Below, piece by piece: positions 37,781 to 56,605 of a stretch of DNA of 64,000 nt. A program made the position numbers and the translations under genes. This DNA is from Bacteroidota bacterium (GTDB taxonomy: Bacteria > Bacteroidota > Bacteroidia > NS11-12g > UBA955): the NCBI GenBank assembly GCA_023957335.1, contig JAMLHC010000005.1:124001-188000 (forward strand). The letters run 5' to 3'. Each line of letters starts with the position of its first letter. Position 1 is the first letter of the stretch. A model generated the notes under the pieces. That model did no database searches and had not been told where the DNA came from. It worked only from the letters and a program-made list of their open reading frames with translations.

Positions 37781-37828
37781 TGAGCACATTTCTCCATGCA
37801 CATTGATGTATGTTAAGAAAACATATAC

Positions 37829-38413: not shown

Positions 38414-38444
38414 TCACTTTGTTTCAATTTAGCCAAACACAGCT

Positions 38445-39581
38445 TTATGCAAGATTATTTATAGCGTCTGTTACAGGACCGAGTTCAACCAGTTTTTTGA
38501 TATAATCATCAAGAGAATGTTCGTTATCTCTTTGAATGTTAGCATCCTTAATGGTTTCTTGCCCTGCGATTAAGAGATTTTTGATATTTTCTTTGGAAGC
38601 ATCAGCCATGTTGGAGTTATACAAAGGTTTTGCATTGCCTTCAATACCTCTGAGTCTTGCCGGCACATCCACTCTTTTATAATTTTTTTTGTTATCGCCT
38701 TCTAATGTGTCAAATAACAAGCTAACTTGATAATTAACTGTGTCTAAGCCTCCGTCCATCATTATATCAGAAATGGACTTAGCCCAATTAAGTGCCCCCC
38801 AATTGCCGGCACGTTGATAGTTTTTTAAATCAAGTAATTGAGAACCCGTACCGATTGAAAGCATCAGCATATCTTTTGCGCTGGGTTTGTTGATACCGAC
38901 ATTTTCGAAATCAGTAGTTCTGGCTTCTGCATAAGCGCACATGGTTGGGTTATTTGCAAAGACCCCACCGTCAATATTTACCATTTGGGAATTATTTCCA
39001 AAGTTGCGGATAATGGCAGGAGGGAAGTAAGTGGGAGCAGCAGAAGTAGAGCGGGCAACATCCCTCACCATGAACTTTCTGTCGGATTTATGTTTTTCAA
39101 CCTCACGACTATTAAAGAAAAATGATTTTTGGGATTGCATATCATAAGTAGTAATAATTAAACGTCCGAGCAGTTGGTCAAATATGATGTCTCCAAATTT
39201 ATCCTTAAAGATGCTTTCAATGGTTTCGGGTTTATATTGAGTTGCATTAAATAGCTGTCTCAATCCAAGCCAATCATTTTTTTTGGATTGATTGAAAATA
39301 GCTTCTCCCTTTTCAGAATAGAGTTTGAGCGCTTCGGATGCAGTGTATTTTGCTCGAGGATTGCCCGCATCAAATCTCTTGGGGTTAGGTATCAAATAAA
39401 AGCAGCCTAATATACCGCCCGTACTAGTTCCTACAATCATGTCAAAATAATCTGCAATGCGAGCATTTGGATTATTGCTAAACTCTGCCAGTTTGCTTTC
39501 TACATATTGAAGGACGGAAGCAGGTATAATTCCTCTGATGCCACCGCCATCGAGGCTCAAGATTCGGACTTTATTTGCCAT
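38445..39581 (-). CDS. Patatin-like phospholipase
   Basis: 378 residues. Predicted lipid acyl hydrolase with a Ser-Asp dyad: oxyanion DGGGIRG (residues 11-17), nucleophile Ser53 in IVGTSTGGILG, and Asp204 in NIDGGVFANNP. No signal peptide, so cytoplasmic. Of the bacterial patatin class that includes CBASS/CapV-type effectors, but there is no nucleotide cyclase or other defence gene next to it, so a metabolic lipase is more likely. Monocistronic by spacing. Confidence 0.92.
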   Translation of the reverse strand: MANKVRILSLDGGGIRGIIPASVLQYVESKLAEFSNNPNARIADYFDMIVGTSTGGILGCFYLIPNPKRFDAGNPRAKYTASEALKLYSEKGEAIFNQSKKNDWLGLRQLFNATQYKPETIESIFKDKFGDIIFDQLLGRLIITTYDMQSQKSFFFNSREVEKHKSDRKFMVRDVARSTSAAPTYFPPAIIRNFGNNSQMVNIDGGVFANNPTMCAYAEARTTDFENVGINKPSAKDMLMLSIGTGSQLLDLKNYQRAGNWGALNWAKSISDIMMDGGLDTVNYQVSLLFDTLEGDNKKNYKRVDVPARLRGIEGNAKPLYNSNMADASKENIKNLLIAGQETIKDANIQRDNEHSLDDYIKKLVELGPVTDAINNLA

Positions 39582-39989
39582 AATACTGAATGTTTAGTTA
39601 GAATATTGCAAGAATAATGAAATATTCTAATACTATGTAGTAGTAGCTGAAAATAAAACAAGTCATCAGCAGTGATGACTTGTTCTGTTGGGTGGTAAGA
39701 TAAATACTTTATCGAACCTATTTAAGTGTTTATTCTCTAATATCCACGATTAACGTTGACCTTTTTCAACTAATCCATTGTTAAAATCCGTTTCTAATAT
39801 GCCCAACTTTTTAGTTGCTTGAATTTTTATTAATTAATTCGATAAAGTTATTGTTGCTGTCCGAATAAGTACTTAAGGTCAAATTGGAAACGGTCACTTG
39901 CATTAAGTGTGGTGTAAATATAGGGATTTTTATTGCTGATTTATATTGTTTTCGGAAATGTAATCAAGGTTCTGAACAAATCCTTTGAT
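39582..39989. other. Non-coding gap between the patatin gene and the secreted-protein island
   Basis: About 400 bp with no gene-like frame. It holds a perfect hairpin (39658-39683, listed separately) and otherwise AT-rich sequence in which I see no promoter or RNA. It forms the left edge of the T9SS island. Confidence 0.6.
39658..39683 (-). terminator. Hairpin, probable terminator on the minus strand
   Basis: Perfect 11-bp stem (ACAAGTCATCA, loop GCAG, TGATGACTTGT). On the minus strand it is followed by TTTTATTTT, as expected of a terminator for transcripts coming from the secreted-protein gene that ends at 40120. Confidence 0.6.
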
Positions 39990-40137
39990 GCCACGATGTA
40001 TAGTCGCCAAGCTATAGCTGCGCTCAATCGCAAGTTTGCGTGTCAAGGCGATTGCGACCCGCGAGCCGTCAATACAGGCATACAGTTTTTCCTTGCTCTG
40101 GTGGGGGCGGACAGCAATGTTATTCTTTACAAATGCT
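39990..40137 (+). pseudogene. Fragment of an M43-type metalloprotease gene
   Basis: A 50-residue plus-strand stretch (AIAALNRKFACQGDCDPRAVNTGIQF, read in parts AIAALNRKF and RAVNTGIQFFLALVGADSN) aligns with residues about 120-160 of the intact metalloprotease at 50903 and of the truncated copy at 47823. It has neither the upstream signal peptide nor the catalytic HExxH, and it ends where the 3' end of the convergent secreted-protein gene begins. It is a recombination remnant. Confidence 0.75.
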
Positions 40138-42993
40138 CAATTTAGCGTGCATTATCCATCGTTTGCCATCAAACACATGCACAAGGTATATGCCTGCATT
40201 GATGCGGCTAATGTCTATGGTATTTACGCCTGCTTGCAATTGCACCTTCATAATCAGGTTGCCGGCAATACCTATGATTTCGTAAACATAGTTGCCTGAT
40301 TCTGCAATTTCAAATGTTAGCTCGGTGCTTGCAGGATTGGGGTACAGCTTTATGTTTTTAAACAGTATGGTGCTTACGCTGATATTAGCCGTGTCAGGAA
40401 CATGAATTGTATCAGAGAAAGCAGAGGAGCAGCCAAAAGTATTTGTAATCATTAGTCGGTAAACTCCTGTATCTGTGAGGATTAAATGATTTTGATTTGA
40501 CCCGACAGGCTGCCCGTATCTGAACCATTGATAATTGCTTGCTGCTGCTGCTGTTTTCAGCGTGTCGCTATCCTTGTAAATAGTCGGAGCATTTGGAACA
40601 GTATCTAATGTAATGGTTATTGTGTCGTTCAACACACAAAGGTTGTGGGCTGTAATCTTTACCCAATAAGTCCCTGCATTGCTGACTTCAATTTCCTGTG
40701 TGGTTTCGTTTGTGTTCCACAAATAAGATAACATATCAGCAGGAGCAATAAGCATAACGGAAGTGTCTAAGTTCTCACACCAATTTATGTTGTCGCCCAA
40801 GAAATCGGGTGCAATATCGGGAAGCGTATCTATGGAAACAGTAAGGGTGTCGCTGAATACGCAAAGGTTATGCGCTGTAACTGTTACCCAATATACGCTC
40901 TCATTGCTGATTTCTATCTGTTGGATAGTGTCGTTGGTACTCCAAAGATATTGCAGCATATCAGTAGGGGCAGCAAGGATTACGGAAGTGTCTATGTTCT
41001 CACACCAACTAATGTTGCCACCAAGAAAGTTTGACCCGACATTCGGCAGCGTGTCTATGCTTACAATAACTGTGTCATACAGAGCGCAATACTTATGAGG
41101 GGTAATCTTTACCCAATAAATCCCTGCACTATCGGTTTGTATTTGTTGGATTGTGTCGCCTGTGTTCCACAAATAAGATAGCATATTATCAGGGGCTTTG
41201 AGAATTACAGAGGTGTCCAAGTTTTCGCACCAATTTATGTTGTCGCCCAAAAAGTCGGGTTCTATATAGGGAAGTGTATCTATGGAAATAACAAGTGTAT
41301 CATATAGCACACAGAAATTAGGAGTGGTTATTTTAACAATATAAACCCCTGCTGTGTCGGTTGTAATTTCATCGCCTGTCGCTCCTGTGTTCCATTGGTA
41401 GCAGTGCATACTGCTTGGGGCTGTGAGCGTTATACTTCCGTTTGAGTTTTCGCACCAGCCTGTGTCGTTGCCGAGAAAGTTAGAAGTTATTTTGGGTAAA
41501 ATATCTACTGTCTTAGTGATAGTGTCGCTCCTGCTGCCGTTGCTTGCAACATAGCGAACACTATAAACGCCTGTGTCTGTAAGTTCAATCAGGGGATTTT
41601 TAATGCTTGCTGTCATTGCAGAACTCCCCTGTTTGCTGATTTCCCAACTGTGAGTGTTAGCCTGAAACGTGTCTTGTCCGTGAAATTGAATTGTATTTGA
41701 GATACAATCCAATTCATAAGCAAAATTGATACTTGGTGTATGGAAATAGCTTTTGACAAAATTCGGAAGACCATAAGTGATTTTATTTATCCCCATATCT
41801 ATACCTTGAATTGTGATTTTTGTTGAATCAATAAGTCCTCTATTTTCTACTAAAACCAAATTATTTGAATCCATTAACGACAAAGCAAATTTATCTTTAT
41901 AGGTTATGCTTTGAAGTTCAAAACTAAAACCAATAACATAGAATTTACGTTTTGAACTAACAGTTGAGGCACTATCATTAGGGTCAAAATCAAATACATT
42001 TAATCCGCTATCACGCTCTACTATGTAAAGTCGTGAATTATCTTTGGAGAAAGATAAACCAAGTACAGGGTATCTAATACTATCAATAGTATATAAAAAT
42101 TTTGCTCCCCCAAGTGATTTGTCAAATTGATAGATTTCAACAATCCTATTTAATGGAGGAATATTTGTATTAACCTTGATAAGATAATTGCCACTAAGAG
42201 AAAATACCATAGGGAAAGCTGCACCTTGTGCGCCCCCAGCAGGGGTAGAAAAAGATTTGGAAACAACAGGGCAGGAAATAATGCCTTGTGAAGTAAGCAA
42301 ATAAGAATACAGGTTATTCGCTTCAAACTCGTGTACTGTTATCCAAATATCTCTTCCGTTATCCGCTTTTACTACGGCTATGGGTTCGCACACACTATAC
42401 ATCAGAACAGAGTCTTTATATGCAACTCTAAAAGTATCTGCTTCTTTGACAATCAGGTTTACGGAAAACTGTTTGGTGGTGCTTATGTTGTAGTAAGTGT
42501 TGAACAAATAAATGCTGTCAGGATTATCTTCATGAAAAACAAAGACCGACCCCATTCTTGACGAAGAATGCCCTAATGAGAGGTTTCCGTTATGGATTAC
42601 CTCATGGTTTGCGTTCCAAATCTTCTCGCCATTGCTGTAAAGCAATAGGTTTCCGTCTTGGTCGGTGTGTACGGCTGCCGCCTCGTCTGTGTGTATGCTT
42701 GTCGGTACTTGGTAAATGGTATCAGGGTCAAAGCGCAAGCCTACACCATGCCCAAAATGCCAATTTCTAGTACGGTTGAAGTCGGGGTTGGTTTCGTAGG
42801 GTTGGGCGTGTGCGCCTAAGCCACTAATCAATATCAGAAAAGAAATCTTTAAGCGAGATTTCGTGAATTTTGAGCAAAGACAAGAAGTAATCCATTGAGA
42901 GATTTTGCCACCCCCGTTCCACTTTCCAATAGTAAGCCCTGCTAAGGTCAAAGTCCATTGCAAAATTCTCATAGCTTGTGTACCCTTTTTCAA
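40120..42993 (-). CDS. T9SS-sorted beta-propeller/Ig-like secreted protein (N-terminus altered)
   Basis: 957-residue frame. Residues 64-430 are the NWHFGHGVGLRF-type beta-propeller-like region seen in Bacteroidota surface proteins; about 455-495 a PKD-like segment; 499-798 four Ig-like repeats of exactly 75 residues, each with an FLGxNxxWCE motif; about 800-870 another Ig-like unit; and 880-957 a T9SS type A sorting domain (YPNPASTELTFEI onward). The signal-peptide core FLILISGLGAHAQ is at 52-64, too far from any ATG: residues 1-55 overlap the HTH gene 42824-43048 in another frame. So either the start is non-standard or the gene is silent. Its C-terminal 6-8 codons run into the protease fragment at 40137. 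Confidence 0.78.
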   Translation of the reverse strand: MKKGTQAMRILQWTLTLAGLTIGKWNGGGKISQWITSCLCSKFTKSRLKISFLILISGLGAHAQPYETNPDFNRTRNWHFGHGVGLRFDPDTIYQVPTSIHTDEAAAVHTDQDGNLLLYSNGEKIWNANHEVIHNGNLSLGHSSSRMGSVFVFHEDNPDSIYLFNTYYNISTTKQFSVNLIVKEADTFRVAYKDSVLMYSVCEPIAVVKADNGRDIWITVHEFEANNLYSYLLTSQGIISCPVVSKSFSTPAGGAQGAAFPMVFSLSGNYLIKVNTNIPPLNRIVEIYQFDKSLGGAKFLYTIDSIRYPVLGLSFSKDNSRLYIVERDSGLNVFDFDPNDSASTVSSKRKFYVIGFSFELQSITYKDKFALSLMDSNNLVLVENRGLIDSTKITIQGIDMGINKITYGLPNFVKSYFHTPSINFAYELDCISNTIQFHGQDTFQANTHSWEISKQGSSAMTASIKNPLIELTDTGVYSVRYVASNGSRSDTITKTVDILPKITSNFLGNDTGWCENSNGSITLTAPSSMHCYQWNTGATGDEITTDTAGVYIVKITTPNFCVLYDTLVISIDTLPYIEPDFLGDNINWCENLDTSVILKAPDNMLSYLWNTGDTIQQIQTDSAGIYWVKITPHKYCALYDTVIVSIDTLPNVGSNFLGGNISWCENIDTSVILAAPTDMLQYLWSTNDTIQQIEISNESVYWVTVTAHNLCVFSDTLTVSIDTLPDIAPDFLGDNINWCENLDTSVMLIAPADMLSYLWNTNETTQEIEVSNAGTYWVKITAHNLCVLNDTITITLDTVPNAPTIYKDSDTLKTAAAASNYQWFRYGQPVGSNQNHLILTDTGVYRLMITNTFGCSSAFSDTIHVPDTANISVSTILFKNIKLYPNPASTELTFEIAESGNYVYEIIGIAGNLIMKVQLQAGVNTIDISRINAGIYLVHVFDGKRWIMHAKLSICKE
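40600..41499 (-). repeat. Four tandem 225-bp Ig-like repeats
   Basis: Residues 499, 574, 649 and 724 of the encoded protein each begin a unit of exactly 75 residues (LPxIxxxFLG...WCEN...ISIDT). Units two and four are the most alike (both FLGDNINWCENLDTSV). Homologous genes at 46965 and 48812 have only one such unit, so the number varies between copies. Confidence 0.88.
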
Positions 42994-43048
42994 TTCGTAA
43001 TCGCTTTAATTTCGCTGCAATTTTAGCGATAATATTTCTCGTATCCAT
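42824..43048 (-). CDS. Small XRE-like helix-turn-helix protein (HTH-A)
   Basis: 74 residues from an ATG. Shares with the proteins at 43147 and 48481 the pattern IxxLRxxKGYxSYExFAxDxDL...YYW..E.G, a helix-turn-helix of the XRE type, and the ending SLKDFFSDID. Probably a DNA-binding regulator. Unlike the other two it is codirectional with a secreted-protein gene, and its stop codon lies inside that gene's signal-peptide region: the two frames overlap for about 170 bp. No partner toxin is present. Confidence 0.75.
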   Translation of the reverse strand: MDTRNIIAKIAAKLKRLRIEKGYTSYENFAMDFDLSRAYYWKVERGWQNLSMDYFLSLLKIHEISLKDFFSDID

Positions 43049-43090
43049 AACCTTGTGGTTTTAACAACACAGTAGTCTAAACTTTTTTAA

Positions 43091-43143
43091 CTTTGAGGCG
43101 ACATAAACCCGCTAAACCGTGTCTTAAGGATATGAAAGAAAAT
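43091..43143. repeat. Shared boundary repeat, copy 1
   Basis: The first 26 bases (from CTTTGAGGCGACATAAACCC) are identical to 48428-48453, and the similarity continues with a few differences to about 43143. In both places it lies just past the 3' end of an HTH gene. It may mark the end of a mobile or recombining segment. Confidence 0.75.
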
Positions 43144-43146
43144 TAC

Positions 43147-43377
43147 TCAAATACCGCTATCCTTAAAAAACTCCTCGAAAGTGAGTTCGTGAATGTCCAA
43201 AATTCTTTTAAGGTAAACAAGAGATATGTTTCTTCCCTTTTCAATGCTCCAATAATACTTTCTGTCAATATCGTGAGCTACTGCAAAGGTTTCGTAGCTT
43301 CTGTATCCCTTGCCAAGTCTAAGGTTTTTAATCTTCTGACCTATCTTTTCCAAAGTTTCTTTGTCGCTGACATTCAC
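43147..43377 (-). CDS. Small XRE-like helix-turn-helix protein (HTH-B)
   Basis: 76 residues from GTG at 43377. Same family as HTH-A and HTH-D: KIKNLRLGKGYRSYETFAVAHDI, read in parts as LRLGKGYRSYETFA and HDIDRKYYWSIEKG, then ILDIHELTFEEFF. Head-to-head with the GLUG-repeat gene, whose ATG is 81 bp away, so it may control both itself and that gene. Followed by the boundary repeat and then HTH-A in the same direction. Confidence 0.75.
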   Translation of the reverse strand: MNVSDKETLEKIGQKIKNLRLGKGYRSYETFAVAHDIDRKYYWSIEKGRNISLVYLKRILDIHELTFEEFFKDSGI

Positions 43378-43458
43378 AAAGCAAACAGACTTAAAAATAA
43401 TTCTTGTTTTTACGGAATATATACCTCATTTTTGCGAAGTCAATTAGATAAAATAGGC

Positions 43459-45432
43459 ATGGACACCCGTTTAATTAACTACTTCGTGAAAACATTCTTG
43501 TTGTTTTGTGTCGCCATGTGCCTTTTTGTTACAGAATCAAGAGCACAGTTTTCAGGAGGAGCTGGTACGGCAGATAATCCGTATCAGATAGCCAGTTTAG
43601 ACGATTTGATACTGTTGAGTGAAAGCCCCGAATATTGGGATTATATCACTTATTTCATTCAGACGGCTGATATTGACGCATCAAGCACCGATACACTGAA
43701 TGGTGGTTTAGGGTTTAAGCCGATAGGTACAGGATATGCAGTAAATGAGCAAAGTTTTTCAGGTTTTTACAATGGAAACGGACACATTATCTACAATCTG
43801 TACATTAACAGACCTTACCAAGATAATGTCGGACTTTTCGGGGCTACTTCTAATGGAGGACATCTTGATACAATAATTATTGTTAGGAATCTTAAATTGA
43901 TTGGTGTTCAAGTGGTTGGAAATGATCATGTAGGCGGATTGGTTGGAGCAAATGCTGGTAGAATTATTAACTGCTTTGTGTCTGGCAGTGTTACAGGTAA
44001 CAATGTTGTTGGAGGAATAACAGATTTTTCAAGAGGAGTTATTGACTGCCGAAGTGAAGCCAACATTGTTGGGAACAATGATGTAGGAGGATTGGTGGGA
44101 ATAATATCTACTTCATTAATTGGTCATACAATAATAAATTCATCTGCGTCTGGCGATGTTATAGGTAAAAATAATGTAGGAGGGCTTGCAGGAGGAAATA
44201 TGTTAGCATTAGGAATGGAGAATCTCGTTTGTTTTTCTTTTGCAACTGGTAATGTTACGGGAGAAGAAAACATAGGAGGCATAGTGGGGCAAAACAAGGC
44301 AGAGTTGTCGGAATGTTATGCCACAGGTGATGTTTCAGGAGTAAAGAATGTGGGAGGGTTGATAGGATATAATGAACGTAAGATCAGCAACTGTTACAGT
44401 ATGGGAAGAGTTGTTGGCAGTATAAATATTGGCGGAGTAATAGGGTATGAAATGGGAATCATTACTACTTGCTATAGCACCAGTGAGGTTACAGGAGATT
44501 CAAATGTCGGAGGTTTTGCGGGATTAGCCCATATAGGTATTACAGAAAACAGTGGTTTCTACAACAATGCTAATATAGATAGAAGTGCTGCAACAGGTTT
44601 GTCATTGTCAGAAATGCAGGTGGATTCCAATTTTCAGGGGTTTAATTTTGATACTGTATGGGCTATATACCCACTCATTAATTGCGGCTATCCTTACTTG
44701 CAGGCACTTCCCCCTGCTGCAACTGACACTATTACTTCAACAACTGACAATTCTCGGTGCGGACTGGGAACTTTAACCTTACAGGCTTCTGCACAAAGCG
44801 GAGCGCTAAATTGGTATGACACGGAAACACATGGCACTATACTAAACACAGGAGAATACTTTGTAACCCCTTTCTTGGATTCCTCTGCTTTGTTTTGGGT
44901 GGAGTTGCATCATGGCATTTGTGCATTGCCAAGACAGGCGGTTGCAGCAACGCTTTTTATACTCGACAACCATGTTGAAAAGGTAGCCGAAACTTTGTTT
45001 GCCAAACAGGACAATGTTCAATATCAATGGCTTGACTGCAATGACAATTTCAACCCCATTTCGGGGGCGGTAATGCAATTCTTTATCCCTGCTGCTGCGG
45101 GCAGCTATGCCGTAGAAATAACCCAAAACGCCTGTATTGACACAAGTGCTTGTGTGGGATTTACAGGCAATGTTAGTATAAGCAGCAAACATCATCTTTT
45201 TTCCGTTTACCCTAACCCCGCCACCACAGAGATAACCATTGAAGTTTTGGAGCAAGGCGGCTACTCTTATGAGATAACAGGAATTGCAGGAAACCTCATC
45301 ACATCGGGCAACCTGCAAGCAGACGTAAACACCATAGACATCAGCCGCATGAGCGCAGGCATGTACCTTGTTCATGTGCTGATTGACAATAACAGAATAA
45401 CAACATACAAGTTTATCAAACAAACAGAATAA
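43459..45432 (+). CDS. GLUG-repeat protein with T9SS type A sorting domain
   Basis: 657 residues from the ATG at 43459; the frame is open back to 43093 but that part is antisense to HTH-B. Signal peptide cut after SRA (residue 29). Residues about 100-380 contain about nine GLUG-type repeats, each with a VGGLVG-like core (HVGGLVG, DVGGLVG, NVGGLIG, NIGGVIG and others) and often CYATGxV. Then an Ig-like segment (CGLGTLTLQASAQSGALNWY) and a C-terminal sorting domain from SVYPNPATTEITIEV. GLUG repeats are found in adhesins and IgA-protease-like surface proteins. Its sorting domain closely resembles that of the 40120 gene although the N-terminal parts are unrelated. Confidence 0.88.
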   Translation: MDTRLINYFVKTFLLFCVAMCLFVTESRAQFSGGAGTADNPYQIASLDDLILLSESPEYWDYITYFIQTADIDASSTDTLNGGLGFKPIGTGYAVNEQSFSGFYNGNGHIIYNLYINRPYQDNVGLFGATSNGGHLDTIIIVRNLKLIGVQVVGNDHVGGLVGANAGRIINCFVSGSVTGNNVVGGITDFSRGVIDCRSEANIVGNNDVGGLVGIISTSLIGHTIINSSASGDVIGKNNVGGLAGGNMLALGMENLVCFSFATGNVTGEENIGGIVGQNKAELSECYATGDVSGVKNVGGLIGYNERKISNCYSMGRVVGSINIGGVIGYEMGIITTCYSTSEVTGDSNVGGFAGLAHIGITENSGFYNNANIDRSAATGLSLSEMQVDSNFQGFNFDTVWAIYPLINCGYPYLQALPPAATDTITSTTDNSRCGLGTLTLQASAQSGALNWYDTETHGTILNTGEYFVTPFLDSSALFWVELHHGICALPRQAVAATLFILDNHVEKVAETLFAKQDNVQYQWLDCNDNFNPISGAVMQFFIPAAAGSYAVEITQNACIDTSACVGFTGNVSISSKHHLFSVYPNPATTEITIEVLEQGGYSYEITGIAGNLITSGNLQADVNTIDISRMSAGMYLVHVLIDNNRITTYKFIKQTE

Positions 45433-45440
45433 GTTCTAAT

Positions 45441-45692
45441 TCAATCAAACTCAAAAAAACATTTTATGTCAACATCAAGTGCTTTAGATATGGTATATAG
45501 TTGTGAAACACTCGTATTTATCTTACCCGTTTCAATTCTTACTATTTGGCTTCTTGTAAGTCCTGCTTCAAAAGCCAACTGGGTCTGTGCCAACTTCTGG
45601 GCTTTTCGGATTTCTTTTATCCTTAAACCCAATTTAATAATAAACTCCTCTTCTCTTAATTGTTGCACCCAACAAAAGTGTACCGAGCACAA
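45441..45692 (-). CDS. XRE family helix-turn-helix protein (HTH-C)
   Basis: Up to 83 residues; no ATG, and the usable starts are TTG (45692) or GTG (45668, 75 residues). A standard XRE domain: LGLRIKEIRKAQKLAQTQLA, then AGLTRSQIVRIETGKINTS and LYTISKALDVDI. This is a different subfamily from HTH-A, B and D. It begins 64 bp from the divergent secreted-protein gene at 45757 and ends 8 bp from the stop of the GLUG gene, so it is tucked between two cargo genes. Confidence 0.8.
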   Translation of the reverse strand: MCSVHFCWVQQLREEEFIIKLGLRIKEIRKAQKLAQTQLAFEAGLTRSQIVRIETGKINTSVSQLYTISKALDVDIKCFFEFD

Positions 45693-45709
45693 AAAACAAA
45701 TGAAGCATA

Positions 45710-45741
45710 TTTGCTACAATAAATACTTTCGTTTACATTTG
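45710..45741 (+). promoter_or_regulatory. Full Bacteroidota promoter (TTTG-N20-TACATTTG)
   Basis: TTTG at 45710-45713 and TACATTTG at 45734-45741, 20 bp apart, with the ATG 15 bp on. It lies in the gap between HTH-C and the cargo gene. An inverted pair ACAAATG (45696-45702) and CATTTGT (45736-45742) flanks it and could be a regulator site. The gene it drives is frameshifted, so the promoter has outlived the reading frame. Confidence 0.72.
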
Positions 45742-45756
45742 TACCCGATAAGGAAT

Positions 45757-46962
45757 ATGAAGAACCTCTATGCTATATTAATAATTTTGCTCGTGGGCGT
45801 TGCTGCACACGCCCAACCCTACGCAACCAATCCTGACTTTAACAGAACCCGCAACTGGCACTTTGGGGACGGAGTAGGCTTACGCTTTGACCCTGACACC
45901 ATTTACAAGGTGCAAACAAGCATACAAACCCATGAAGCCGCAGCCGTTCACACCGACCAAGACGGAAACCTGTTGCTTTACAGCAATGGGGAAACCATTT
46001 GGAACGCCAACCACGAGATAATCCACAATGGCAACCTTGCTCTTGGTCATCACTCCTCAAACTTAGGTTCTGTATTTGTGTTCCATGAGGACAACCCCGA
46101 TAGTATTTATCTTTTCAATACTTATTACAACATAAGCACCACAAAAGAATTTTCTGTAAACCTGATTGTAAGGGAAGCGGACACTTTCAGAGTTGCGTAT
46201 AAAGATTCTGTTTTGATGTATAGCGTGTGCGAACCCATAGCCGTAGTAAAAGCCGACAATGGCAGAGATATTTGGGTGGTAGTACATGAGTTTGGAGCGA
46301 ACAACCTGTATTCTTATTTGCTTACTTCACAGGGTATTGTTTCCTGCCCTGTTGTTTCCAAATCTTTTTCTACTCCTTTTGGTAGTCCGCAAGCAGCATT
46401 CTTCACAATGGTTTTTTCTTCTGACGGGAGCTATATGGCAAAAGTAAATACCAATCAGACTTTTCCTCTCATAAAAAGGGTCGAAACGTATCGCTTTCAT
46501 TCGGGCAATGGAAAGTTTGATTTTTTGTATTCTCTTGATAGTTTAGCTCAACTAACAACAGGGCTTTGTTTCAACAAAGATAACTCATATTTGTTTGTAA
46601 CGGAACGTGATGATGATTTGCTATCTTTTAAATTTAATCCGAATGACAGTTTATCTACTATTAACTCGAAGAACAAAATTGCTCTTAGTGGACTTAAATC
46701 TAAATTACAACAAATGCCATATAATTATGGGGTTGCCTTAATGAGAAGAAGACCTGATGATGTATCCTTTATAGATTTTATTGTAAACGATGATTTGGAT
46801 ACAATTAAAGTTTTAGAGGAAAAAATTGATTTAAATGCTACGATGAATTATGTTTTCCCCAATTTCAACCAAAGTTACTTTTATACCCCCCCTATCAATT
46901 TCACGGACAAGACACGTTTTCCGCAACAACGCATGATTGGCTCATTACCAAACAAGGAATAA
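45757..46962 (+). pseudogene. Frameshifted T9SS beta-propeller protein gene, 5' part
   Basis: 401 codons from the ATG at 45757, with an intact signal peptide (LYAILIILLVGVAAHAQ) and a beta-propeller region very similar to residues 64-425 of the 40120 gene. Compared with that copy, 40 bp are missing at 46896-46901, between two CAATTT direct repeats, which shifts the frame and leads to a stop at 46962. Translation would give a secreted protein without Ig-like or sorting domains. The remainder continues in a different frame as 46965-47777. Confidence 0.85.
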
Positions 46963-46964
46963 CT

Positions 46965-47777
46965 ATGACAGCAAGCATTAAAAGTCCTTTGATTGAGTTT
47001 CAGGACACAGGAGTTTACTCTGTCCGCTACATTGCTTCCAACGGAAGCAGAAGCGATACCCTCACCAAAGAAGTAACAATGCTACCCAAGATTTACAAAA
47101 ACTTTCTCGGTAATGACACAGGTTGGTGCGAGAGCGTAGGCGCAAGCATACCCCTGAAAGCACCCGCAGGAATGTTTTGCTACCAATGGAACACAGGGGA
47201 AACAGGCGATGAAATAACAACTGACACAGCAGGGATTTATATCGCCAAAATCACAACTCCCAACTTCTGCGTTCTCTATGACACCATAAATATAGTTATA
47301 GACAGTATTCCCGACAAGCCTGTAATCACTATAAGTCAAGATACATTAAAAACCAATGCAATAGGAAATATCAGATACCAATGGTACAAAGATGAGTTTA
47401 TGACAGGCTCAAACCAACCTTACTTGGTTTATAGCGACAGCGGAATATACAAGGTTGAAATCATTACATCAGGCGGCTGTTTAGGCATATCAGATACAGT
47501 TCAGATAAGAGGCACAAGAGCAAGAACCTTACAGCCCAATGCTTTTGTAAAAATATTCCCTAATCCCATAGACAACTATTTCTACATTGAAGTTTTAGCA
47601 AAAGAAAATCTCAAAGCAGAAATCGTTGATATAACAGGAAAAAAAGTATTTGATACAGAACTTTCAAACGGACTAAACAAAATAGAAGCAGGTAATATAG
47701 AGAACGGCATCTATTTTCTCAAAATCAGATTTGAAGATGAAAGTACAGGAATTTACAAACTAATTAAGACAAACTAA
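46965..47777 (+). pseudogene. Frameshifted T9SS beta-propeller protein gene, 3' part
   Basis: 270 codons from an ATG at 46965, immediately past the stop of the 5' part. Holds the PKD-like segment, one FLGNDTGWCE Ig-like unit, another Ig-like unit (QWYKDEFMTGSNQPYL) and a T9SS type A sorting domain (KIFPNPIDNYFYIEV). The frame is already homologous upstream of that ATG (FHGQDTFSATTHDW), showing that it is the continuation of the 45757 gene. Without a signal peptide it cannot be exported on its own. Confidence 0.83.
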
Positions 47778-47822
47778 TAAGGAGAACATAATTACATAAT
47801 CCACAACTTAATAAAAACTATT

Positions 47823-48443
47823 ATGAAAAAGAAAGTACAACTTATCTTAGTGGCAATGCTGTTGCCCTTTCTCAACGGCACAGCCCAAGACACAATCCGT
47901 TGTGTACACAACCAATTCTTGCAAGAGTATCAAGATTCCAACCCTCGCAGCCCTGATATTTCCAAGATTATCAGCTATGGAACAAAACGCTTTAGAGAAA
48001 AGAACCCAAACCTCGCTTTTTATCCCAAGCCTATGCCCGCCCCGCCTTGTGATATCTGTATGACCATAGACCCTGATTGTTTTAAAAGCAAATATGCCTT
48101 ACCCGTAATAGTGCATATTGTAGCAAAAACAACAGATGTAACCATAGGGCAAGGAAGCAATATCCCAGACGAGCAAGTGTATAATGCACTTGCTGCCCTC
48201 AACAGGCAGTTTGCAGGCTTTGGGCAAACAGACAGCAGAGCCGTAAACACAGGCATACAATTTTACCTCGCTCCTGTGGGGGCAGACAGCAGCGGCATAA
48301 TCCGCTACAACTCCCCCCTCAGCAGCGTAGCCCCTCTCACATTCGCTCCCTTGCGCAATCTTGTTGATACTCCGCTCAACACCAACCAATACATTCATAT
48401 CTTTGTGGTGGACAGTATTTGTTTTACCTTTGAGGCGACATAA
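47823..48443 (+). pseudogene. Truncated M43-type metalloprotease
   Basis: 206 codons. Closely similar to the first 198 residues of the intact protease at 50903 (same signal peptide type, ICMTIDPDCFKS, YALPVIVHIVAK, AVNTGIQFYLAPVGADSSGI). Similarity breaks at 48419, right after FVVDSI, and nine unrelated codons precede a stop. The catalytic HExxHxxGxxH (residues 251-261 of the full copy) is lost, so the product cannot be an active protease. The break is followed after 8 bp by the boundary repeat and HTH-D. Confidence 0.85.
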
Positions 48444-48480
48444 ACCCGCTAAAATGTGTCTTATAGCTATGAAAGAAAAA
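48428..48480. repeat. Shared boundary repeat, copy 2
   Basis: Partner of 43091-43143 (first 26 bases identical). Here it starts 8-9 bp past the point where the protease copy loses similarity and ends at the 3' end of HTH-D. Confidence 0.75.
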
Positions 48481-48729
48481 CTACTCAATATCCTCAAAAA
48501 ACTCTTTAAGGCTGATTTTGTGAATATCAAGGATTTTAAGAATACTCTGTATTGTGGGGTTGGTTTTAGCACTCTCTATTCTCCAATACTGTACTGTTGG
48601 CAAATCATGGTCTATGGCAAAATGTTCATAATTAGAGTACCCTTTATCAATCCTCAACTTCTTGATTTTGGCAGCCATAGCAACTATGCGCCTATCAGAT
48701 TGTACCTTATTAACTTTATTTCCCGCCAA
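48481..48729 (-). CDS. Small XRE-like helix-turn-helix protein (HTH-D)
   Basis: 82 residues if the TTG at 48729 is used, 65 from the ATG at 48678. Same family as HTH-A and HTH-B (IKKLRIDKGYSNYEHFAIDHDL, read as LRIDKGYSNYEHF, then ILDIHKISLKEFFEDIE). Head-to-head with the secreted-protein gene at 48812; the gap contains a perfect 12-bp palindrome and a -7 box. No toxin-like partner. Confidence 0.76.
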   Translation of the reverse strand: MAGNKVNKVQSDRRIVAMAAKIKKLRIDKGYSNYEHFAIDHDLPTVQYWRIESAKTNPTIQSILKILDIHKISLKEFFEDIE

Positions 48730-48768
48730 CTCACCGCAAAAAGGTAGAAAAAAAATGAGAACAAGTAT

Positions 48769-48780
48769 ATCATATATGAT
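48769..48780. promoter_or_regulatory. Candidate operator palindrome
   Basis: ATCATATATGAT is a perfect 12-bp palindrome between HTH-D and the secreted-protein gene. It overlaps the place where a -33 element would be, 9 bp before the -7 box at 48790, as expected for a repressor site. No experimental support. Confidence 0.45.
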
Positions 48781-48789
48781 GGAATATAA

Positions 48790-48797
48790 TATCTTTG
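48790..48797 (+). promoter_or_regulatory. Bacteroidota -7 box for the 48812 gene
   Basis: TATCTTTG (TAnnTTTG), 14 bp before the ATG at 48812. No TTTG at -33; the palindrome lies there instead. Confidence 0.5.
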
Positions 48798-48811
48798 CTC
48801 CGACAAAGCCA

Positions 48812-50857
48812 ATGAAAAAGCATTACCTCATATCAGCAATCATTTTGCTTTTTGCAGGGGTGGGCGCACACGCCCAACCCTACGAAACCAACCCCGACTA
48901 CAAACGGGCTAATATTTGGTATTTTGGCGACAGCGCGGGGATAGATTTTAGTTCAGGCTCGCCTGTTTCCTTAACAAACAGCAAGATGTATGCTTTAGAA
49001 GCATCAGGCACTATTGCAGATACCAATGGCAATTTACTATTCTATACAAACGGACAAACTGTTTGGAATAAGAACCACGAGATTATGGAAGGGGGAAATG
49101 GATTAGAGGGAAGCCAAGATGCCTCGCAGAACGGCTTAATTCTTAACCACCCCGACAATGATTCTTTGTATTACATCTTTCTTACACCTTATTCCTATGA
49201 TTATATGAATGGGCTGAAATATTGCGTTGTCAATATAAAAGCCAACAACGGAAACGGAAAGGTTAGTGAAAAGAATATTCTGCTGCACCCTAATTCATCT
49301 GAAAAAGTCAGTGCGGTTTATCACGCCAACGGCAGGGATATTTGGATAATAGGGCATGAATGGGGAAACAATAACTTTTACTTATACCTACTCACAAGTA
49401 ATGGATTTAATCAATGCCCTGTCATCAACTCTGTTGGAATTCAATATAAAAAAAGCAGTATATTTACTGATGGAATATTTGTAAATCAAGGATTTATAAA
49501 GTTTTCTCCAAACTCTAAGTATATGGCTCATGTATTTACCCCAACAGACCCCTTAAATATCTTCAGCGAACTTTACAGGTTTGATAAAACAAATGGTCAT
49601 TTGGAATTGTTTACAACAATTCCAAATGACCGTTATCTTTGGGGTGCAGAGTTTTCAGACAACAGCGAGAATTTGTTTATTTGCCGAAGAGATAGTCCAG
49701 TATTGGTATATAATATTCCAACTAATCAATACAGAATGATTGATAGCTTAATCTTGCCGTCTGCTACACAATTACAATTATCCAATGACGGAAATATTTA
49801 CTTTGGATTGGCAGACTCAACTTTTATTGGAATAATAAACGGCAACGATTTTAATAATATTCACATAAATAAGAAGGCTGTAAACTTATCAAAAGGGACA
49901 ATGCAATATGGTCTCCCTAACATCTTTGTAGGCTATCTAACCCATGGACAGCCAAGAATTATATATGAGGATAAGTGCAGCAATCAAACCTTTGATTTCG
50001 GGTTATCTTATTTGGCGGCTAATGTAACTAAATGGATATTTACGCACCCGAACAACGAGTTTGAGCGTACAGAAGACAACCCAACTGTTACTTTTCCCGA
50101 TACAGGACTTTGGACAGTAAAATGCGTCCTGCTTTCCAATGATACACTTTCAACCACTTTGTTTGCAGAAGCCCAAATACCCCACAACTTCTTAGGCAAT
50201 GACACAGGTTGGTGTGAGGAGTTGGGCGCAAGCCTCACACTGCAAGCCCCAAGCGGTATGCACTGCTATGAATGGAACACAGGCGAAACCGCCTCTCAAA
50301 TCTCTGCTGACACAACAGGGATTTACATAGCAAAAATCACAACTCCCAATTTCTGTATCTTTTATGACACAATAGCAGTTTCAATAGATACTACTCCCCC
50401 AAAGCCTGTAATCTATCAAAACCACGACACCCTCAAAACAGATGTTTCAGCCAAAGGCTATCAATGGTATAAAGACAACAACCCCACAGGCGAAAACAAC
50501 AATTTCCTGAAAATAACAGACACAGGAATTTACCGCCTGACCATAACAAGCAATGCAGGGTGTGTAGCTCAATCCGATACGCTTAATGTATTCAGGGTGG
50601 GAGTGAAAGGGGTAGAAAGATTAGATTTTAAGGTTTATCCCAATCCGTTTACTGATGAACTGATTATTGAGCTAAAAGAAGATAAGAAGCCTGAAATAAT
50701 CATATTCAATTCGCTTGGGCAGGAAATACTAAAAACCACCCTAACAAACACAATAGAAAGAATACATACAGCCAAATGGAAACAAGGAGTTTACTTCATG
50801 GAAGTAACCCAACAAAACGGAATTAAACAAATAATAAAACTAATAAAAACCGAATAA
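48812..50857 (+). CDS. T9SS-sorted beta-propeller/Ig-like secreted protein
   Basis: 681 residues from the ATG at 48812 (the frame is open back to 48662, but that part is antisense to HTH-D). Signal peptide LISAIILLFAGVGAHAQ. Residues about 25-430 form the beta-propeller-like region (IWYFGDSAGIDFSSGSP, GNLLFYTNGQTVWNKNHEIM), followed by a PKD-like segment, one FLGNDTGWCE Ig-like unit, a QWYKDNNPTGENNNFL unit and a C-terminal T9SS type A sorting domain (KVYPNPFTDELIIEL onward). The only intact member of the three related cargo genes in the window. The metalloprotease gene follows after 45 bp. Confidence 0.88.
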   Translation: MKKHYLISAIILLFAGVGAHAQPYETNPDYKRANIWYFGDSAGIDFSSGSPVSLTNSKMYALEASGTIADTNGNLLFYTNGQTVWNKNHEIMEGGNGLEGSQDASQNGLILNHPDNDSLYYIFLTPYSYDYMNGLKYCVVNIKANNGNGKVSEKNILLHPNSSEKVSAVYHANGRDIWIIGHEWGNNNFYLYLLTSNGFNQCPVINSVGIQYKKSSIFTDGIFVNQGFIKFSPNSKYMAHVFTPTDPLNIFSELYRFDKTNGHLELFTTIPNDRYLWGAEFSDNSENLFICRRDSPVLVYNIPTNQYRMIDSLILPSATQLQLSNDGNIYFGLADSTFIGIINGNDFNNIHINKKAVNLSKGTMQYGLPNIFVGYLTHGQPRIIYEDKCSNQTFDFGLSYLAANVTKWIFTHPNNEFERTEDNPTVTFPDTGLWTVKCVLLSNDTLSTTLFAEAQIPHNFLGNDTGWCEELGASLTLQAPSGMHCYEWNTGETASQISADTTGIYIAKITTPNFCIFYDTIAVSIDTTPPKPVIYQNHDTLKTDVSAKGYQWYKDNNPTGENNNFLKITDTGIYRLTITSNAGCVAQSDTLNVFRVGVKGVERLDFKVYPNPFTDELIIELKEDKKPEIIIFNSLGQEILKTTLTNTIERIHTAKWKQGVYFMEVTQQNGIKQIIKLIKTE

Positions 50858-50902
50858 GGAAAAAACAATTACAAAATAATCCATAACTAAATATTTACCA
50901 TC

Positions 50903-53900
50903 ATGAAAAGAAAAGTCCAACTTATCTTAATGGCAATGCTATTGCCCTTCTTCAACGGCACCGCCCAAGACACGTTTACCTGTGTACACGACCTTATGCT
51001 GGAACAGCAAAAGCAAGCCAACCCGCATTTGGGCGATATGCCCCAGCTCATCAGCTACGGAGCAAAACGCTGGCGGGAGCGCAACCCCAATTTTGTTTTT
51101 TACCCCAAGCCGCAGCCCGCTCCCCCTTGCAGTATCTGCATGACCATCGACCCTGACTGCTTCAAAAGCCGCTACGCCCTGCCTGTCATAGTCCACATAG
51201 TAGCCAAACCGGGCGACACAACAGCAGGACAAGGCAGCAACATACCCAACAGTCAGGTGTACAACGCCCTTGCCGCGCTCAACAGGCAGTTTGCGGGCTA
51301 CGGTATTCCCGACAATCATACGGTTGCCGTAAACACAGGCATACAGTTCTACTTAGCCCCTGTGGGCGCGGACAGCAGCGGCATAATCCGCTACAACAGC
51401 CCCCTGAGCAGCATACCTTCGGGTACGCTCGCCCCTCTCCGCGCTCTCATGGACTCCACACTTAATACCAACGAATACATTCATATCTTTGTGGTGGACA
51501 GTATTGAAAAACCGGGGGTAATGGGCTACGCAAGCTACCCTGAAACGGGTTTTAACCATGCGGTGGTGGTGAGCCGAAAACGATTTGGCGATGCAAGCCA
51601 AGCATGCTCCCAGTGTCAATTGCACAGCCAAAGCCGCAACAAAACCCTTGCCCACGAGCTTGGGCACTTTCTCGGCTTGCGCCACACCTTTCAGGGCGGC
51701 TGCGCTCCTGACAGTGCCGACTGCGAAGTGCAGGGGGACGGCTGCTGCGACACTCCGCCTGTGGCGGCACAAAACGAACAATGCCCCACAGGCATAAACT
51801 CCTGTCCCGACAACGACCCCCGCCCCGACCAGATAGAAAACTTCATGGACTACACAAGCGAAGCCTGCTCCAAATGGTTCACCCGCAACCAGGCGGAGCG
51901 AATGTACCATGTGCTTGAAACCTACAAGCGGGAGCTGACGGATATTGAAAACCTCATCACCCATCAGCCCAATATATGTATGTTCAGCGCACGGTTCAAA
52001 ATGCAGAACCCTGTGATGTGCGACACAGGCAATACGGTGCTGTTCAGAGCCTTGCCTTACACTAACACAGGCGTAAACTATATATGGACAATCTACGACA
52101 GCCTGCAACAGACAGTCCATTCCGCCACAATAACGGACAACCACGAATGGCAGTATTACATGGACGAAAAAGGCAAATACGATGTCCGCCTGCAAGTGGC
52201 TTACAACAGCGACACCGCAACGGAATACATACCCCAAGCCCTGTGGGTAGTAACCTGCGGTGCCGCCCTAAGCCACGAGGGCGGTAACTGGTTCTTTGGC
52301 AATCATGCAGGGCTTGTCTTCACGGAAGCAGGTGTCAGACCAAGCATGGAGCTTTCTTTTCGTGCGCCAAATAACATGAACGCCAATGAAGGTAACGTAA
52401 GCATAAGCGACAAAGAGGGAAATCTGATGTTCTATGCAAGCGGGCGTAACCATAAAATTGACAGAGGAGTGGTGTACAACAGCAATCATAATGCAACGAA
52501 TAATGGCAATGGGGAGGGCTTCAAGATGGCAGACAACTGCGCACAGCCTGCCGTAGTATTTCCTTATCCCAACGACACCACCAAAACCCTGATGCTGCAC
52601 AGCACTGTTACATACGAAGGAAACCTCTATTACAGCATACTGCACAAAAAGTCCAACGGACTTTACGACACATTGTTTAATTATAAAAATATTCCTGTTA
52701 CTATAGCGGGTATCATGCAAAATAAAGATAATGCCATAGATGCAGGAGAGAATCTAACTGTTGTTGCAAAATGCTACGGTGTTGGATATTGGTTAGCTAC
52801 TACAGTACGCTTTGATAAAAACGAAGAGGATTACTATCTAGCAATAATATCTATTGATACAAATGGCTTTCAGTTAGTTGATACAATGCTTGTTCCTGGA
52901 TTTGATGGGGCTAATCTACACTATGGTCAAGGAAAGTTCTCTCCAGATGCCACCAAATACGCCACTTTTAATAATATCTATAATTTTGACCGAGCCACAG
53001 GCAAGCTCACGCACCTTGCAGAGTTGCCTTTCCCTAACTATCTTATATATGGCTTGTCATTCAGCCCCAATTCCCGCTATCTGTACTGGATTGGTGAAAA
53101 TGAGGGCACCACCCAAAACCTTATCCGCAGGGTGGATTTATCTTTCAATAACCCGCTCTCTTACATTCAAGATATAGGGATTGCTCCCAACAATGCCTCT
53201 TGGCAGGCAATGCAACTAGGACCCGACAACAGGCTCTACATAGCCAACATAGGAAGCTCAGAACTTGCCGTCATCAACCACCCTGATGCTGACTGGAGCA
53301 AAATCCACCATAACCCGCTCGGCTACGAGCCTTATGGAGTACCACTGCAAATAGGCGGCATGGGGGGTGTATCGGTAATGGGCTTGCCCAATCAGATAGA
53401 CGCAAAGAGAATAGAAGTTATCAAAGATACCATTTACTACACGATAAAAGACTGTAACACTGTTGTTTTCAGTAGCACTGCTTGTTGTCGAGGTAGCTAC
53501 CTATGGATGTTCGGAGATGGAGATACTTCCATGCAGCCATATCCCGAACCGCACACCTACGCAGGAGTGGGCGTTTACCATGTCAAACTCGTGCTTGACG
53601 GAACAGACACCGTTCGTGTTACCGTCCCGCTTTTCAATCCCAAAGTGCGTATTTCGGGCGATACGCTCCTGTGCAACGAGAACCAATATGCAACCTACAC
53701 CGCCCTTGACATAGACAGCTTTTCCAAAAACTACCAACTGCATTGGGAAATCAAGGACGGCACATACAGCCTTAACTACGCTACAAGTAACACCATAGAG
53801 CCGGTCTTTGACGCTCTGCCCGCCCAAGTCATAGTCCATGTAACCGACCCCGCAACCGAGTGTGAAGCAAGGGATACAATCACAGTCAATCAGATTGCCG

Positions 53901-56605
53901 AACTTGCCACCAACAAAATCAATAACGGAATACCTGCATTTGCCTCGTGTTCTCCTGCTGGTACTTTCTCTTTGGAGGGCAACACACCTTCGGGGGGCGG
54001 CACTTTCTATTATTCGTGGTATTACTCCTACAACAATCAGGATTGGGTGGATATGGAACAATACACCCAAAACCTGACCAATCAACCGCTTGAGAGAACA
54101 ATTTATTTCAAACGCCTTCTGTATCCCGATGCGTGCTATAATTGGAGCAATGTAGTGAAAGTTGTACCCGCCATTCAGGGGAATGATATATTTCCACTGA
54201 ATCCGCTGTATGACGAACGGGTCTGCGATCCGATATTTGGCGGTTCGTTGTTAACGTTTCTGCGTAGCGATACGGTCGTAGTCTATGACGACCCCGCCCA
54301 TTCTTATTACTTCAAATGGCAGACAAGCTCCAACGGTTATGCGTGGACAGACATTGCGGAATATATAGACAATCAGGCATATTTTTGGGTGGACTGGCGT
54401 TACAGTCCTCGCGGAATCGAACGCAGGTTTGACGACCATGAACCCCGTAAGTATATCAGAAAGATTGTAGCTGCTTCTTCCTATTCCTCCCCGTTTTCCT
54501 ATTGTTCAGACACAAGCAACGTACTTACAATCACCAATTACAACATAGACAGCATGCGAGCCATCCGTTTCTATGCCTACGACCCTGATATTATTCACGG
54601 AGATATTATGCTTATAGAGCCGGACAGTTTGTTTAGGGTGGTATGGCAGACAAGCTGCAATGGCACAGACTGGACGGACATCACAGCAGGGTTTAACCAT
54701 GACACGCTTTGGGGGGTGCAGTCGCTCGGAGCGGAGTTTGTTCGCAGAAAGATAGTTAAGCTGACTAATCAGGGCTTTACTTATTGCGACAGCCTCCTGA
54801 GTAATGTGCTGGAATGTAACCCGTTGACCATGCAGCCCGTTTCTCAAGTAGTGCAAATTGGAGAATACGCAACATTTTATTTGGATTACTCCTCTGCCGA
54901 TCCTTTCGCTATTCAATGGCAGCAGTACAATCCAAGCACAAGCAGTTGGGATAATATCGCTGGCGCAACTTCTGCTGAACTACGCATTCACGCTAATAAA
55001 TGTAACGATGATACCTTGTTTAGGGCATTGATAACCAACGCATGCAGGTCGCTGATTACGGACAGTGTCGCGCTTCATGTTGTAAATAATCACTCTGATT
55101 TCTTTCTATGGCTGAAAGATTTGCCGTCCGACACAGCCCGTGAGCCGAATATAGAAGTGTCTGCCAAGAATAATTATTTCGGGAGTCCCGACATAGCCGC
55201 AAGCAACACGGTAACGGTAGTCAACGGCAGACTGACTATGATAACCGTGCTGGACAGGGAGTTAGACTTGTACGTAACCGTGCGCAACAAGGGTGCAGAC
55301 ACAAGCGGAGGAGGTGAACTGTATCTGTATGCGAGTCTCAGCGGACTGAACCCCGAGTGGGATTTCAGTTTCATGGATATCCCTACTGTTATAGCATTGA
55401 GTCCATCCAGAGTGGTATCTAATTATAATATTTTTGGTAACCCTCCAATATTTGGAACCGAAGGCACTCCTGTCAATAGCGAGGGTATTCCCATACCCGA
55501 CATCCCACCGGGTGACAGTGTGCGCATACACTACCGTTGGACCAATCCGCCAGAGCATTTTGTGCAACACTATTTCTCTCGGTCGGGGAGTGTATATCCC
55601 ACGAGCAATGCAGTGATCTATCTTGCGCGTATAACGGAGTGCAGCAGTTATCCTTTTGAGATGAGCTATCCGGAGGTCATCTTTAGCTCTACTTCTGTTC
55701 AGGGCACCGCCAAAGTTAATATTAAACAGAATGCAAAAGTGGCGGCACTCCATTGCTACACGCTTCCGGTACATAATGATGCGGTGAGTCCGTTTAATTC
55801 GTCTCAAATGCAGCCTGATATCATTACAATGGTATCGAGCAAAATGGTTCTTCCTGTAGATATAGGTGTGGATGTGGATTCGGCAAATGCCTTTTTTGAT
55901 AATGCGGAGATGTACGTTTTCTTTGATGATGTGTTGTGGGATGCTTTTGTTGCAGGGGGTAATATCGGAGGAGGCTACACCATAGTAGAGGACGGTGTTT
56001 TCAGGGTGAGCAACTATGGTGCGGTATTTTGGAGCAATATGTTTTTGGATACCGGGGTGGTGGGTCATGCGGGCTTCTCGTTTTACTACAAGACGGGCGA
56101 AGACACTTCTGGCGCATTGATAAACAATAAATTCAGGGTTTTTCTGACCGAAGATTCACAAGAGCAGGGCAGTCTGTCGCTGTATGTGGACTCTAAGCTG
56201 AAGGGCATCAACGGAGGTCAGACAATGATGATACCGGCTCAGCCCCGAGATGCAGCAGACAAACGCATTGCAGGCACACAAAGCCATGCCAAAGAATCTG
56301 CAATCGCCTCACCACTACCGACTCAGGAGCGTGACCCGACAACAGATGAATTTATGTTCAGTTTTCGCCCCAATCCGTTCAGCCGGGAGTTGTTTGTGCG
56401 TGTGAGCAATGCCGAGCCGGCTGCGGTTATTTCGTTATCTTACATGAACGGCAAGGTGGTTTATGAACATGTCATAAGCGGTGAGAGCCGCGCCCCATAT
56501 TACGAATTTACGATACCTGCACAAGCATTTGCCGAGGGCGTATATCTTCTCTCGTATCAATCCCCAACCCGCAAAGCAGTTAAAAAAGCAGTGTTGCTTA
56601 GGTAG
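50903..56605 (+). CDS. Giant secreted M43-type metalloprotease with PKD and T9SS sorting domains
   Basis: 1900 residues. Signal peptide cut near FFNGTAQ (residue 22). Residues about 50-345 are a pappalysin/cytophagalysin-type (M43) zinc protease: HELGHFLGLRH at 251-261 supplies the three zinc histidines and Glu252, and Met315 in ENFMDYT is the Met-turn. From about 455 to 845 lies a beta-propeller-like region (GNWFFGNHAGLVF) homologous to the neighbouring cargo proteins, then a PKD domain (SYLWMFGDGDTS, about 862-915), several Ig-like segments, and a type A sorting domain from FRPNPFSRELFVRV (about 1817). Likely exported by Sec then T9SS to the surface or medium as a protease. The 5' third is visibly GC-richer than the rest of the window. 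Long antisense frames inside it are shadows. Confidence 0.9.
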   Translation: MKRKVQLILMAMLLPFFNGTAQDTFTCVHDLMLEQQKQANPHLGDMPQLISYGAKRWRERNPNFVFYPKPQPAPPCSICMTIDPDCFKSRYALPVIVHIVAKPGDTTAGQGSNIPNSQVYNALAALNRQFAGYGIPDNHTVAVNTGIQFYLAPVGADSSGIIRYNSPLSSIPSGTLAPLRALMDSTLNTNEYIHIFVVDSIEKPGVMGYASYPETGFNHAVVVSRKRFGDASQACSQCQLHSQSRNKTLAHELGHFLGLRHTFQGGCAPDSADCEVQGDGCCDTPPVAAQNEQCPTGINSCPDNDPRPDQIENFMDYTSEACSKWFTRNQAERMYHVLETYKRELTDIENLITHQPNICMFSARFKMQNPVMCDTGNTVLFRALPYTNTGVNYIWTIYDSLQQTVHSATITDNHEWQYYMDEKGKYDVRLQVAYNSDTATEYIPQALWVVTCGAALSHEGGNWFFGNHAGLVFTEAGVRPSMELSFRAPNNMNANEGNVSISDKEGNLMFYASGRNHKIDRGVVYNSNHNATNNGNGEGFKMADNCAQPAVVFPYPNDTTKTLMLHSTVTYEGNLYYSILHKKSNGLYDTLFNYKNIPVTIAGIMQNKDNAIDAGENLTVVAKCYGVGYWLATTVRFDKNEEDYYLAIISIDTNGFQLVDTMLVPGFDGANLHYGQGKFSPDATKYATFNNIYNFDRATGKLTHLAELPFPNYLIYGLSFSPNSRYLYWIGENEGTTQNLIRRVDLSFNNPLSYIQDIGIAPNNASWQAMQLGPDNRLYIANIGSSELAVINHPDADWSKIHHNPLGYEPYGVPLQIGGMGGVSVMGLPNQIDAKRIEVIKDTIYYTIKDCNTVVFSSTACCRGSYLWMFGDGDTSMQPYPEPHTYAGVGVYHVKLVLDGTDTVRVTVPLFNPKVRISGDTLLCNENQYATYTALDIDSFSKNYQLHWEIKDGTYSLNYATSNTIEPVFDALPAQVIVHVTDPATECEARDTITVNQIAELATNKINNGIPAFASCSPAGTFSLEGNTPSGGGTFYYSWYYSYNNQDWVDMEQYTQNLTNQPLERTIYFKRLLYPDACYNWSNVVKVVPAIQGNDIFPLNPLYDERVCDPIFGGSLLTFLRSDTVVVYDDPAHSYYFKWQTSSNGYAWTDIAEYIDNQAYFWVDWRYSPRGIERRFDDHEPRKYIRKIVAASSYSSPFSYCSDTSNVLTITNYNIDSMRAIRFYAYDPDIIHGDIMLIEPDSLFRVVWQTSCNGTDWTDITAGFNHDTLWGVQSLGAEFVRRKIVKLTNQGFTYCDSLLSNVLECNPLTMQPVSQVVQIGEYATFYLDYSSADPFAIQWQQYNPSTSSWDNIAGATSAELRIHANKCNDDTLFRALITNACRSLITDSVALHVVNNHSDFFLWLKDLPSDTAREPNIEVSAKNNYFGSPDIAASNTVTVVNGRLTMITVLDRELDLYVTVRNKGADTSGGGELYLYASLSGLNPEWDFSFMDIPTVIALSPSRVVSNYNIFGNPPIFGTEGTPVNSEGIPIPDIPPGDSVRIHYRWTNPPEHFVQHYFSRSGSVYPTSNAVIYLARITECSSYPFEMSYPEVIFSSTSVQGTAKVNIKQNAKVAALHCYTLPVHNDAVSPFNSSQMQPDIITMVSSKMVLPVDIGVDVDSANAFFDNAEMYVFFDDVLWDAFVAGGNIGGGYTIVEDGVFRVSNYGAVFWSNMFLDTGVVGHAGFSFYYKTGEDTSGALINNKFRVFLTEDSQEQGSLSLYVDSKLKGINGGQTMMIPAQPRDAADKRIAGTQSHAKESAIASPLPTQERDPTTDEFMFSFRPNPFSRELFVRVSNAEPAAVISLSYMNGKVVYEHVISGESRAPYYEFTIPAQAFAEGVYLLSYQSPTRKAVKKAVLLR

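Follow-up and report, generated by a model that had tools for sequence, protein, structure and literature searches.

Silent-cassette gene conversion systems are those of the pilin or antigen type, in which a related second copy lies nearby. Small variable segments and deletions between repeats shorter than 30 bp have been put down to replication slippage (PMC2884548), and polymerases have been shown to slip where short direct repeats accompany a hairpin (PMC4134008). Here, we compare these and related systems with a locus in a 64,000-nucleotide stretch of DNA (the window; all coordinates refer to it) from a Bacteroidota bacterium (GCA_023957335.1, contig JAMLHC010000005.1, positions 124,001 to 188,000 of the forward strand). 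At this locus, a gene with the ends of a type IX secretion system (T9SS) cargo protein (gene b, 45757-47777, plus strand) is split by a frameshift. We consider it very likely (probability of about 0.9) that gene b is a recently inactivated T9SS cargo paralog that lost its frame through a slippage deletion between TCAATTT repeats.

Results

Gene b lacks 40 bp at a short direct repeat

Global alignment of gene b (45757-47777) with its paralog gene a (40120-42993, minus strand) contained a single 40-base gap, in agreement with the preliminary description of this DNA, according to which 40 bp are missing from gene b. The hexamer CAATTT was located where that description had placed it, at 41683-41688 and 41723-41728 on the minus strand and at 46896-46901 on the plus strand; it is indeed a direct repeat, but the sequence common to both ends is 7 bp long (TCAATTT) rather than 6. 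The two TCAATTT copies of gene a start exactly 40 bp apart and are separated by 33 nt, and the segment that they bound (41683-41729, minus strand) holds a 13-bp hairpin. In gene b, alignment and an end-homology search placed the missing 40 bp at the sole remaining TCAATTT (46895-46901, plus strand), so that the spacer and one repeat copy are gone and the other copy is retained. CAATTT by itself occurs in the window at chance level (128 occurrences versus 124 expected). For a 40-bp deletion, end homology of at least 7 bp is rare and beyond chance, being found at 8 of 2,714 placements in gene a and at 40 of 63,840 in the window.

An error of assembly or consensus, by which the cell would have the 40 bp and the assembly would have dropped them, is very unlikely: the contig spans 319 kb of a seven-contig assembly rated 99.95% complete, and collapse of the paralog copies is improbable because the longest exact match between genes a and b at the site is 25 nt. 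Loss of 40 bp at a 7-bp repeat is not known to be a common type of error in reads.

The frame change separates the start of gene b from its sorting tail

Past the deletion there is a single change of frame; homology resumes in another frame, as the preliminary description had it, in the open reading frame at 46965-47777. The upstream open reading frame (45466-46962, with its native start at ATG 45757) ends at TAA 46960-46962, about 20 codons past the break. The 5′ part of gene b (45757-46962, plus strand) carries a signal peptide, recognized by eye, and an N-terminal domain; the 3′ part (46965-47777, plus strand) carries an Ig-like part and a Por_Secre_tail domain (PF18962) and has no signal peptide. 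The TAA therefore stands between an N-terminal frame without a sorting tail and a C-terminal frame without a signal peptide, and ATG 46965 sits 2 nt past it. No further stop or frameshift was found in gene b. PF18962 scored above the family cut-off in gene a, in the 3′ part of gene b, and in the third paralog, gene c (48812-50857, plus strand), in which start, body, and sorting tail are all present. Because the 5′ product of gene b would lack the tail and the 3′ frame lacks a signal peptide, export of either piece to the cell surface is not expected.

The promoter and signal peptide of gene b are retained, as previously described, the latter as judged by eye only. The promoter-like box (TTTG-N20-TACATTTG, 45710-45741, plus strand) is of the −33/−7 type of Bacteroidota, with the consensus taken from PMC6847099. 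This pattern has six matches in the window with 2.9 expected, so that the box is notable only because of its place, 15 nt before ATG 45757.

The lost segment is present in all other homologs

The protein alignment comprised genes a and c, the two open pieces of gene b entered separately, and 19 further homologs, namely, L005 from the same genome and 18 of 29 loci in other genomes (the remaining 11 were left out of the alignment). All 21 homologs other than gene b have the lost segment, and one of its columns is a Cys in every one of them. Judged from these paralogs and relatives, the spacer-bearing form is ancestral and the deletion is the derived state, indicating that the 40 bp were lost in gene b and not gained in gene a. 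Close relatives by which gene b might be dated were sparse: no DNA match to it was present in G001, the one other genome of the genus that was searched, and protein scans returned one distant locus only from genome contigs, one distant locus from viral contigs, and none from plasmids. In-frame stops were detected at one place each in the relatives from G020 and G021 and also in G010; because the G010 stops lie at least partly in the overlap with an upstream gene for a helix-turn-helix (HTH) protein, decay in relatives was left uncounted.

A hairpin adjoins the second repeat in gene a

As single-stranded DNA, the gene a segment can form a 13-bp stem with a 5-nt loop that adjoins the second repeat. 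Its folding energy was −7.9 kcal/mol, versus −2.5 kcal/mol (standard deviation, 1.25) for shuffled sequences (z = −4.3), and none of 200 shuffles was as good. Of 566 overlapping 47-nt stretches of gene a, 3 reached that stem length (at most one mismatch), as did 30 of 12,791 in the window, whereas 10 of 566 and 39 of 3,198, respectively, folded at least as well; the hairpin is thus less exceptional by folding energy than by stem length. Among the 21 homologs, the stem of gene a is the longest (12 Watson-Crick pairs counted, with 9 in the next). Direct repeats of at least 7 nt occur in this segment in 3 of the 21 (gene a, L031, and L036), yet L031 and L036 have no such deletion, which counts against the slippage explanation.

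As regards a possible independence of RecA, the 7-bp homology in gene b falls below the 30-bp threshold quoted in PMC2884548. During replication, the nascent strand would have paired with the wrong TCAATTT copy, the second in place of the first or vice versa, a mispairing probably aided by the hairpin in the intervening 40 bp. The 40 bp, including one TCAATTT copy, would then have been lost from gene b, shifting the frame toward a stop about 20 codons on and leaving a product without the sorting tail. A further point against this explanation is that only a paralog, gene a (the nearest one), displays the repeat together with the hairpin; the ancestor of gene b presumably carried the same pair. 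The sequences themselves show the 40-bp gap, the 7-bp repeat, a single switch of frame, no other lesions, and the hairpin of the paralog, and from these we infer slippage as the mechanism of the deletion and a probable loss of function of gene b.

The break is younger than the duplication

To gauge the age of the break, we compared genes a and b on either side of it. The dN/dS ratio was 0.17 in the 5′ part, 0.11 in the 3′ part, and 0.14 in the first 140 codons of the 3′ part, while dS exceeded 1.1 and was close to saturation. When gene c served as the outgroup, residue changes past the break numbered 9 unique to gene a versus 10 unique to gene b. The 291 codons past the break contain no stop, and 120 of their 2,619 possible single-base changes would make one; the probability of finding no stop without constraint is 0.45, 0.14, and 0.018 at 0.02, 0.05, and 0.1 substitutions per site, respectively. 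The lack of any other stop or frameshift, together with the low dN/dS, indicates that the break happened much later than the a/b duplication.

Past purifying constraint in both frames, together with the position of ATG 46965 just past TAA 46960-46962, might suggest that both pieces of gene b are used, with reinitiation at this ATG or ribosomal frameshifting yielding functional products. We regard this as highly improbable: a signal peptide is absent from the C-terminal piece, any product of frameshifting would remain short of 13 to 14 residues, including the Cys that all 21 homologs retain, and the constraint is accounted for by selection before the break.

Gene a has lost its own start

The preliminary description took the reading frame at 40120-42993 for an intact homolog. 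Its body is open to the Por_Secre_tail (40120-42824, minus strand), but its native start, signal-peptide region, and promoter-like box have been lost. The open frame 5′ of 42824 lies out of frame within a 74-amino-acid XRE-type HTH gene (42824-43048, minus strand; HTH_3, E = 0.0035; HTH_31, E = 0.0021; both below the Pfam cut-off), which runs straight into gene a in another frame and whose stop directly abuts the end of the gene a signal-peptide region. Three loci in relatives (L025, L030, and L032) have an HTH gene of this kind 5′ of a cargo homolog and on its strand; there, a promoter-like sequence covers the 3′ end of the HTH gene (with TTTC replacing TTTG as the −33 element in L030), and a start and a signal peptide come next. 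These elements are missing in gene a, and TAnnTTTG is absent from 42825-43100 on its strand. A paralog with an open frame should therefore not be taken for an intact donor copy.

The gene a frame at 42824-42993 (minus strand), overprinted on the 3′ part of the HTH gene, encodes a signal-peptide-like stretch, perhaps by chance; the gene a product may be exported via this stretch read from the HTH tail. In the Ig-like part of gene a (40590-41339, minus strand) there are three direct repeats spaced by 225 bp and 68 to 70% identical, with none listed in genes b and c.

Neither slippage nor gene a is a likely route back

The preliminary description left two outcomes side by side, recent decay and a reversible on/off state. 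The first agrees with the lack of other lesions and the low dN/dS; the second is not supported by the following comparison. Gene conversion from gene a, restoring an ON state from a frameshifted OFF state, is highly doubtful, although the paralog bearing the 40 bp sits 5.2 kb away and gene b keeps its promoter-like box and, by eye, its signal peptide. Exact identity between the two genes beside the site extends for 25 nt on the 3′ side only, and on the 5′ side there is no exact tract of at least 14 nt for about 520 bp, until 46340-46373; long common tracts on both sides of the site, as for gene-conversion switching, are therefore lacking. Across all segments tested, pS between the two genes ranged from 0.59 to 0.73 and thus gave no indication of recent exchange. 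Given this short, one-sided identity and high pS, we rejected gene a as a source of repair by conversion. The gene a segment is inverted relative to gene b and about 75% identical at the site. When the genome itself was searched with 211 bp around the segment, the only matches were gene a and the flank of gene b itself, leaving no other donor copy of the 40-bp region.

Slippage could not restore the 40 bp because they are unique sequence. No tandem repeat arrays, as in slipped-strand phase variation, were present in 45400-47800, and no pairs of inverted repeats, as in an invertible promoter, were found around the gene b promoter in 45400-45900. Scarcely credible is the remaining alternative, that genes a and b form an inverted pair with complementary damage (start lost in a, frame lost in b) acting as a slow inversion switch, in which rare recombination across 660-bp, 80%-identical inverted arms would join the start of gene b to the body of gene a.

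The surrounding cluster is accessory and partly broken

M43-type metalloprotease genes adjoining the cargo genes are likewise broken. A truncated one lies beside gene b (47823-48443, plus strand) and is 75% identical to residues 1 to 201 of the product of a 1,900-amino-acid gene at 50903; a fragment of a further one lies at 40008-40133 (plus strand). In the sister species (G001), one contig carries matches to 36712-39584 and to 56718-57872, which starts with tRNA-Phe, with 105 bp between them. The 17.1 kb between these flanks (39585-56717), with genes a, b, and c and the M43-type genes, therefore has no counterpart there; the flanking gene on the side opposite tRNA-Phe is presumably patatin-like. 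Ends of a site-specific island were sought by comparing 39550-40120 with 56560-56800 and rejected, since the longest direct repeat, at 10 bp, was too short.

The window holds four small XRE-type HTH genes, all on the minus strand (42824-43048, 43147-43425, 45441-45713, and 48481-48678), three of which are oriented divergently from a gene for a secreted protein. Three of the four belong to one subfamily, with 45441-45713 more distant. This subfamily (alignment A1) occurs in 8 of 69 genomes of the family, once each in the seven others. In four of these seven (G021, G012, G010, and G023), a cargo homolog follows the HTH gene immediately on the same strand, and in three of the four the 3′ end of the HTH gene is overlaid by a cargo promoter-like sequence. 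In G026 and G036, the HTH gene is oriented divergently from a neighbor that has a signal-peptide-like start, and in G002 it is flanked by unrelated genes. A narrow literature search found no paper combining T9SS with XRE or helix-turn-helix. An XRE regulator repeatedly placed before this cargo family, with promoter-like sequence over its 3′ end, could merit a study of its own.

A 58-nt repeat (43085-43142 and 48422-48479; 90% identical) lies behind two HTH genes whose products share about 41 to 44% of their residues. Two copies of the 25-nt core of this repeat are present in this genome, and none of 66 relatives has it. The repeat could be a rearrangement breakpoint or a recombination site.

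Discussion

Gene b looks like a case of ordinary gene decay, not like an on/off switch, within an accessory cluster whose secreted-protein genes have been duplicated repeatedly and are decaying. As a single event it carries little weight; it is a textbook case of a hairpin and short direct repeats leading to a frameshift deletion.

Compared with described systems, genes a and c and the 3′ part of gene b end as T9SS cargo with a Por_Secre_tail (PF18962) does, whereas gene b is split and gene a has no normal start. With silent-cassette gene conversion, the locus shares the related second copy nearby (gene a), but the two copies are too diverged, lack long common flanks, and bear no mark of recent exchange. 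With slipped-strand phase variation at tandem repeats, it shares a frame change that is not a multiple of three at a repeat, but gene b has no tandem array and its unique 40 bp are not regainable by slippage. The closest likeness is to slippage deletion between short direct repeats, or short-homology-dependent illegitimate recombination: the spacer has gone together with one copy of the repeat, the homology is below 30 bp, the distance is short, and the spacer, as seen in gene a, holds a hairpin. From that system, the locus differs in host and gene only.
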